This document shows positions 35,640-45,972 of a stretch of 64,000 nt of DNA, piece by piece. How positions within the stretch are numbered: position 1 is the stretch's first letter; each line of letters starts with the position of its first letter. The DNA is taken from the NCBI GenBank assembly GCA_016214855.1, contig JACRMT010000018.1:62001-126000 (forward strand). The letters are read 5' to 3'. The DNA is from Nitrospirota bacterium. Its GTDB lineage: Bacteria > Nitrospirota > Thermodesulfovibrionia > Thermodesulfovibrionales > UBA6898. The position numbers and the translations under genes were made by a program. A model generated the notes under the pieces. That model saw only the letters and a program-made list of their open reading frames with translations. It ran no database searches and was not told the origin of the DNA.

Positions 35640-35722
35640 TTTCGATAACCCTGCCGTCCTCTTTATTAGGACCAGTGGCTTTGCGTCCTACCCTCTCAGG
35701 CAGTTTGCCGTTTCGATAACAT
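35640..35722 (-). promoter_or_regulatory. c-di-GMP-I (GEMM-I) riboswitch
   Basis: On the minus strand the leader contains the class I c-di-GMP aptamer in order: GGCAAACUGCC, a P2 hairpin capped by GAGA, GGACGCAAAGCC, the tetraloop receptor CCUAAUAAAGAGG, and the closing GGGUUAUCG. A base-paired P1 can be drawn with GUUAUCG against CGAAAUAGC. These are the conserved ligand-contact and tertiary-contact elements. It lies 56 bases upstream of the PhnD-like gene and the GGDEF-EAL gene, so the operon responds to the second messenger it makes or breaks. Confidence 0.9.
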
Positions 35723-44777: not shown

Positions 44778-44924
44778 AGCAGGTAAAAAGTCAGTAGATT
44801 GTTAGGTGCTTAGGGCGAACAGATCTGCGGGATCACAAAGCTTGCTGTAGCAATATTCTCTATAGTCCTGAAAGACTATAGACTAATCAACCTAATATGC
44901 TTTTGTCTTATTGAGGAGAACATT

Positions 44925-45746
44925 ATGGCATTGCTTGATTATTTCAAACCTGTTGTCTCGATGACCGCTGAAGAGGTGCGGGAATTCATGAAGGGAAAGA
45001 ACCCTGATGAGTTTAATCTGATCGATGTCCGTCAGCCGATCGAATATGAGCTCAGCCATCTTGCCGGTGCGAGGCTCATGCCGGTGGGTGAGCTCCAGGC
45101 TCATCTCAATGAGGTGGACAAGGCCAAGCCGACAATAGCCTATTGAGGATCAGGCGTTCGCAGCCGGGCGGCTGCGGCAATCCTTAATGACTCCGGTTTT
45201 AATAATGTATTCAACATGCAGGGAGGCATCAGGGCCTGGGAGGGACTGCTCGCTCAAGGACCTCCCGAGGCGGGCATGGCCTTTTTCGGCGATGCTGTAA
45301 AGCCGGACGAACTTGCAATGCTCGCCTGGATGCTGGAGGACGGTTCACGGCAGTTCTATAGCCGGCTCGATGAATTTCTGAAGGACGAGGATGCCCGGCA
45401 TCTGTTCCAGAGCCTTGCCAAAGCAGAAGAAAGCCATGAAAAGACGCTTGCTGAACTCTACAAGACCTATTCGGGCGGCAGTGCTATCGGGGATAAGCCT
45501 GCGACAGAAAAGGGAGAGATCATGGAAGGCGGCGTCAGGGTTGATGAATCGCTTCTCTGGGCGAGGGATAAGGATGTCACAGCGATCCTTGAATTCGCCA
45601 TATCTCTTGAGACGAATTCCTATGACCTGTATATCAAGATGGGACGGAGATTCGAGGGAGATGCAAGCAGGGTCTTTTCACTGTTGGGTGAAGAAGAGAA
45701 AAAACATCTCGAACGCCTTGCAAAACTGCTCGAAAAGAAAGTCTGA
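44925..45746 (+). CDS. selenocysteine rhodanese-ferritin fusion (predicted)
   Basis: A 273-residue product if the TGA at 45144-45146 is read as selenocysteine. The N-terminal rhodanese domain runs MTAEEVREFM, FNLIDVRQPIEYELSHLAGA, then PTIAY-TGA-GSGVRSRAAAAIL, where TGA stands exactly at the catalytic cysteine of the YCxSGxRS loop. The frame then stays open for 200 codons through FNMQGGIRAWEG into a ferritin-like helical domain (DGSRQFYSRLDEFL, KAEESHEKTLAEL, AISLETNSYDLYIKMGRRF, LGEEEKKHLERL) with E and H metal ligands. A SECIS-like hairpin follows the TGA. GAGGAG precedes ATG 44925. Sulfur or selenium transfer near an iron site is likely. Confidence 0.8.
45144..45176 (+). promoter_or_regulatory. 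UGA codon with bacterial SECIS-like hairpin
   Basis: TGA (45144-45146) is followed after 12 bases by a perfect 7-bp stem CGCAGCC (45159-45165) and GGCTGCG (45170-45176) with apical loop GGGC. The loop begins 19 bases after the UGA and starts with GG, meeting the published bacterial SECIS rule (loop 16-37 bases from UGA with a G in its first two positions). Confidence 0.75.
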
Positions 45747-45808
45747 ATTGCAGAAGCAGTAGCATGTTACCAATAAGTATTCTGACAAATTTCAAAAATC
45801 TCCTCACA

Positions 45809-45857
45809 CCCCTCTTTGCCAAAGAGGGGTAGAATACCTCCCTTTGACAAGGGGAGG
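45809..45857. repeat. pair of GGAGGGG-type hairpins
   Basis: CCCCTCTTTG (45809-45818) pairs perfectly with CAAAGAGGGG (45820-45829). A second hairpin joins CCTCCCTT (45837-45844) and AAGGGGAGG (45849-45857). Same loose family as 31490-31510 and 42732-42752. It may also end transcription of the preceding gene, though no U-run is directly attached. Confidence 0.6.
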
Positions 45858-45972
45858 ATAGGAGGGATTTTTCAGTTAATGACTTCACGCGTTTTATTTT
45901 TTCCTGCTTGACAACCATTTCGACATTTCATTAATCTTCATACGCTGAACACCATATTAAGAAGGAGATGCT

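Follow-up and report, generated by a model that had tools for sequence, protein, structure and literature searches.

The gene at positions 44925 to 45746 of the window (the whole 64,000-nucleotide stretch of DNA that was analysed) encodes a rhodanese domain fused to a ferritin-like domain. The comparison with its relatives makes it almost certain that this is a genuine selenoprotein gene in which the UGA at position 45144 is read as selenocysteine (Sec), a conclusion drawn from sequence data.

A rhodanese/ferritin-like fusion gene with one in-frame TGA

The coding sequence starts with the ATG at 44925 and ends with the stop codon at 45744-45746; the TGA at 45144-45146 (codon 74) is its only internal stop. 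The features of the locus are as follows.

44913..44918, + strand: putative Shine-Dalgarno-like GAGGAG, read from the sequence
44925..45746, + strand: coding sequence of the predicted Sec-rhodanese/ferritin-like fusion, 273 amino acids, one internal TGA and a terminal TGA stop; homologues stay in one frame across the TGA
44964..45242, + strand: rhodanese domain, residues 14-106, active-site loop Y-U-GSGVR-S (PF00581; matches to PDB rhodaneses with Z 16-18)
45144..45146, + strand: UGA codon predicted to specify Sec, residue 74, at the catalytic Cys position (TGA or TGT/TGC in the aligned column)
45159..45176, + strand: bacterial SECIS-like hairpin, 7-bp stem and GGGC loop (fold, comparison of Sec and Cys sequences, fixation of the Arg codon CGC)
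45303..45740, + strand: ferritin-like (rubrerythrin-type) four-helix domain, residues 127-272 (PF02915, helices of the AlphaFold model, structural matches)

The original prediction had placed the TGA exactly at the catalytic Cys position of the rhodanese loop, and codon 74 indeed lies in the loop Y-x-GSGVR-S, in a column occupied by Sec or Cys in the relatives. The frame, which had been described as intact for about 200 codons behind the TGA, was found to contain 199 open codons before the terminal stop, a run with a chance probability of ~5e-5 at the local base composition. As foreseen, gene callers split the gene: in a standard list of open reading frames it appears in two pieces, and only the one at 45216-45746 (176 amino acids) reaches the minimal length of 80 amino acids. 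The window protein contains no Cys residue along its full length. At 45800-45870, 3′ of the gene, there is an inverted repeat (cctctttgccaaagagg) with a purine-rich repeat after it, an arrangement that appeared REP-like by eye.

Sec and Cys forms occur in two phyla

In 90 aligned relatives, the catalytic column held 51 TGA and 39 TGT/TGC codons and nothing else, a ratio that is not a frequency estimate because the 40 sequences from the Geobacter phylum were picked with a preference for TGA. Those 40 comprised 29 TGA and 11 Cys forms, and the Nitrospirota sequences comprised 22 TGA and 28 TGC/TGT forms, again with no other codon. The phylum names Nitrospirota and Desulfobacterota (the latter for the Geobacter-phylum set) were deduced from two records that carry names, L017 and L018. 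The alignment of homologues proposed with the original prediction thus showed both residues in this column, and since the TGA was kept in 51 genomes, the suspicion that resequencing might turn it into a Cys codon can be set aside and a sequencing error is excluded.

The fused protein was present in 51 of 396 genomes of the window's phylum (about 13%) and in 104 of 395 genomes around a Geobacter relative (26%). The earlier impression that a fusion to a ferritin-like domain is unusual did not hold, and Cys versions were widespread too. The nearest named relative came from a Nitrospirae groundwater MAG (85% identity), and no full-length relative was found in the viral and plasmid collections searched.

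Purifying selection was equally strong on both sides of the TGA. In three close pairs, the dN/dS values upstream and downstream were 0.122/0.111, 0.116/0.123, and 0.117/0.140, which argues that the region after the TGA is translated without a change of frame and is equally constrained. On the combined tree, Sec and Cys were exchanged at least six times on supported branches and 13 times on the best tree, and two Sec sequences (L052 and L054) were located within a well-supported, otherwise Cys-containing clade. One relative (L023, G280:C97) carried, in addition to the Sec TGA, an in-frame TAG that replaces a conserved Lys near the C-terminus and reflects either an error or decay.

A SECIS-like hairpin accompanies the TGA form

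Bacterial SECIS elements are hairpins located directly downstream of the UGA with a G in a small apical loop (PMC1088965). The original prediction had described a perfect 7-bp hairpin with the loop GGGC 12 bases downstream of the TGA, and this was borne out. The stem (CGCAGCC at 45159-45165 paired with GGCTGCG at 45170-45176) begins 12 nt and the loop (45166-45169) 19 nt 3′ of the TGA, and the 47-nt fold had a free energy of -21.3 kcal/mol (z -2.46 versus dinucleotide shuffles). Hairpins were counted if the stem had 5 bp or more, a G stood near the start of the loop, and the spacing was of the bacterial type. They were found in 49 of the 51 Sec sequences, but in only 12 of the 39 Cys sequences; with at least 6 bp, the counts were 42/51 and 6/39, respectively.

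Compensatory base changes in the stem were not found across the relatives, so the support for the hairpin comes from codon fixation instead. All 22 Nitrospirota Sec sequences use CGC for Arg at position +5 and AGC for Ser at position +6, whereas the Nitrospirota Cys sequences use AGG, CGA, AGA, and others for this Arg, with CGC in 4 of 28. Over all sequences, the Arg codon was CGC in 45 of 51 Sec forms versus 8 of 39 Cys forms, and the full CGCAGC was present in 45/51 versus 5/39. By inspection, a shifted hairpin (GAGCC...GGCTC) was recognized in the six Sec sequences lacking CGCAGC. Synonymous recoding gave a z of -1.27 for the Sec sequences versus -0.17 for the Cys sequences, and in an independent-pairs test of hairpin against Sec, with fewer pairs than formal significance requires, 5.0 of 6 pairs pointed in the same direction at 6 bp. 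Two Cys (TGT) sequences, L029 and L093, which are close to Sec sequences in the trees, possess a near or full hairpin; these are likely relics of a recent Sec-to-Cys change.

The host genome encodes the Sec machinery

The genome containing the window (3.3 Mb, rated 100% complete) was searched for selA, selB, selC, and selD, and all four are present: selA (616 bits) adjoins selB (375 bits, cut-off 242), tRNA-Sec (selC) scored 70.9 bits (gathering threshold 47), and selD (343 bits) has a single in-frame TGA of its own in the motif GCAG-TGA. The objection that the genome might lack selB or selC therefore falls away. Among the 22 Nitrospirota genomes with the TGA form, selB over the cut-off was not found in five drafts (G215, G140, G350, G041, and G084); the five absences are probably draft gaps, although G140 is rated 99% complete. 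The Desulfobacterota TGA genomes tested all had selB.

Within the Geobacter phylum, selB was present in 79 of 80 genomes carrying the fusion versus 67 of 80 non-carriers (Fisher p 0.001, from raw counts across lineages and completeness). In the order and class to which the window belongs, selB was also present in nearly all genomes without the fusion. Co-occurrence of fusion and selB was rejected as proof of Sec; for the most part it says little, since these lineages commonly have selB with or without the fusion.

The most plausible course of events is that the downstream hairpin would recruit SelB with Sec-tRNA-Sec, that UGA 45144 would be decoded as Sec at the rhodanese active site, and that translation would then run on into the C-terminal ferritin-like domain. 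An ordinary stop, be it due to a pseudogene, two separate genes, or a sequencing error, would fit the two pieces seen by the gene caller and the TAG of L023, but is highly improbable, since 51 genomes from two phyla share this TGA, purifying selection is equal on both sides of it, and the genome has the Sec machinery.

Properties of the two domains

The rhodanese domain (residues 14-106) matched PF00581 with 67.8 bits (cut-off 22.2), and the AlphaFold (AF2) model of the protein matched the rhodanese structure 3tp9 with a Z of 18.3. The active-site loop consists of six residues, U-GSGVR, with the chalcogen residue first, and R79 is invariant in the 90 sequences. The Arg that usually, though not universally, follows the catalytic residue (CRxGxR) is absent and the window protein has a Gly there; this Arg is present in 6 of 51 Sec sequences versus 24 of 39 Cys sequences, counts that ignore phylogeny. 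Its scarcity in the Sec forms suggests that they may act on a different substrate. Most Sec sequences have no or one Cys in the protein.

The C-terminal domain matched PF02915 (Rubrerythrin) with 42.6 bits (cut-off 22.8). Two ExxH motifs and two further Glu residues provide six candidate di-iron ligands (E138, E168, H171, E229, E258, and H261), by which the domain should bind two iron atoms. All six positions are kept in 50 of 51 Sec and 31 of 39 Cys sequences. A link of Sec to intact ligands was considered and rejected for want of statistical support, because the eight Cys sequences with lost ligands form one clade. The genome G150 has two copies (L042, L050), of which the Sec copy retains all six ligands and the Cys copy has lost several. 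Lacking a rubredoxin FeS4 domain, and indeed any Cys, the window protein is not a strict rubrerythrin.

The AF2 model (mean pLDDT 89, pTM 0.59) showed two domains with a linker of lower certainty between them (residues ~111-125); with this pTM, the model does not fix how the domains are arranged relative to each other. The structural matches of the ferritin-like domain (Z 16.8-17.9) included the Dps-like 8w1d/8w1e, a mini-bacterioferritin, and nigerythrin (Z 16.8).

A flavoprotein gene is the commonest neighbour

At 11 of 42 loci, a flavoprotein gene was directly adjacent to the fusion gene on the same strand, compared to ~0.03 expected. This commonest neighbour was found in both phyla, at eight Sec and three Cys loci. 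The five of these 11 flavoproteins that were scored reached 266-280 bits over the full length against TIGR03169 (cut-off 310). The family TIGR03169 (Nterm_to_SelD) takes its name from a fusion to SelD, and the neighbour flavoproteins are relatives, not members, of it.

In the window genome, the TIGR03169-like gene is not at the fusion locus, but on another contig (L166, 5619-6740 on the minus strand of C13). There it lies beside two glycosyltransferase-like genes, away from both selD and the fusion gene. The window neighbours of the fusion gene, assigned by eye, are of the housekeeping type (mutS2-like, ABC-F, MTAP-like, and APRT-like). A conserved operon for the window gene was rejected, as these neighbours are common to close relatives only. 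Elsewhere in the window, a c-di-GMP-I riboswitch was detected at 35641-35719 on the minus strand (64 bits, gathering threshold 35).

Possible functions of the fusion protein

We infer that the rhodanese and di-iron domains may be coupled and that the flavoprotein may be their partner. In the proposed reaction, the selenolate would take up sulfane sulfur (or a Se atom), giving an Se-S (or Se-Se) intermediate in the six-residue rhodanese loop. The tethered di-iron centre, with its irons bound via E138, E168/H171, E229, and E258/H261, would run a redox half-reaction, most likely the reduction of peroxide or oxygen. As the window protein has no Cys, resolution of the Sec intermediate would depend on a thiol from outside or on a partner protein. 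The TIGR03169-like flavoprotein, the next-door gene in many relatives, would be a likely partner of the fusion protein. Sec-based chalcogen transfer tied to di-iron redox chemistry is put forward tentatively as the exact chemistry. It is rather doubtful, though conceivable, that these proteins represent a new enzyme class in which a Sec chalcogen carrier feeds a tethered di-iron centre together with a SelD-associated flavoprotein, serves sulfide/selenide or peroxide handling in anaerobes, and switches repeatedly between Sec and Cys.

Three other readings were weighed, which bear on function alone and leave the selenoprotein assignment untouched. It is possible that the protein is a Sec-dependent peroxidase whose selenol would take over the part of a rubredoxin domain and reduce the di-iron centre. 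The rubrerythrin-type ligands are conserved together with Sec, the loss of several of them is confined to one clade of eight Cys sequences, and the rubredoxin domain is absent; however, these ligands were lost only once, the independent-pairs test gave no information here, and the model is not confident in how the two domains are arranged.

A role in selenium trafficking appears rather unlikely. Here, the selenol would take Se from selenite or selenide as a perselenide and pass it to SelD, with the ferritin-like domain being structural or protecting against peroxide. The adjacency to a relative of the SelD-fusion flavoprotein family at 11 of 42 loci agrees with such a role, as does the selB excess among carriers in the Geobacter phylum (79/80 versus 67/80), and a rhodanese perselenide was reported as a selenium donor (Ogasawara 2001, as cited in PMC5877670). 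This neighbourhood is, however, absent at the locus of the window genome, the selB background is high, with selB in most non-carriers of the window's class, and the di-iron ligands are strongly constrained in the Sec sequences. A Sec enzyme for making Sec would also be circular, although Cys forms exist.

Sulfane-sulfur handling as in persulfide dioxygenase-rhodanese fusions, in which the rhodanese would load a persulfide and the iron domain oxidise it, is unlikely. A sulfide pathway is known that combines a rhodanese and an iron oxygenase with an SQR-like flavoprotein, and PDB matches to the rhodanese domain of BpPRF were obtained. The iron domain is, however, ferritin-like and not of the metallo-beta-lactamase fold, the hosts presumably belong to largely anaerobic lineages, and the Arg that usually follows the catalytic residue (CRxGxR) is missing from 45 of 51 Sec sequences.

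The gene neighbourhood provides a way of testing for a connection with selenium or sulfide metabolism. 

Implications

The bacterial selenoproteome gains a widespread, apparently uncatalogued architecture, in which a large share of the carriers have Sec. None of the NCBIfam selenoprotein models reached its cut-off with the window protein, so public annotation probably contains truncated versions of the Sec members. With its many Sec/Cys switches and the hairpin relics in Cys genes, the family is a good natural system for studying what drives selenium gain or loss.

Comparison with known systems

That Sec-containing rhodaneses are known in principle, as the original prediction had stated, agrees with an inventory of prokaryotic selenoproteins from 2026, which covers 119 families and lists five rhodanese forms (PMC13188914, Table 1) with the motifs UxxS, UxxG, CxU, UxxG, and UxxxxU for forms 1 to 5. 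In all five, Sec is located in the PF00581 domain, as in the window protein, and forms 2 and 4 (MBM9537886.1 and MCY3690685.1) share its UxxG motif. The five forms are inventoried with the rhodanese domain only, form 5 being a rhodanese/DsbD fusion, and neither "ferritin" nor "rubrerythrin" occurs in the text of the inventory. In the open-licence literature, no paper combining rhodanese, selenocysteine, and a ferritin-like domain was found. The fused architecture is thus apparently uncatalogued; it is set apart from forms 2 and 4 by their descriptions, and either form may include it.

TsoB (NF045694), which is rhodanese/DsbD fusion-like, resembles the window protein as a rhodanese selenoprotein with a fused redox domain, but has another partner domain and two Sec residues; the window protein matched its model weakly (25 bits, cut-off 805). 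Rubrerythrin and nigerythrin share the four-helix ferritin-like domain with the ligand pattern E..ExxH..E..ExxH, whereas the window protein has a fused Sec-rhodanese in place of their rubredoxin domain. The persulfide dioxygenase-rhodanese fusion BpPRF (5ve3) likewise joins a rhodanese to an iron enzyme, but its iron domain is unrelated and its rhodanese uses Cys.
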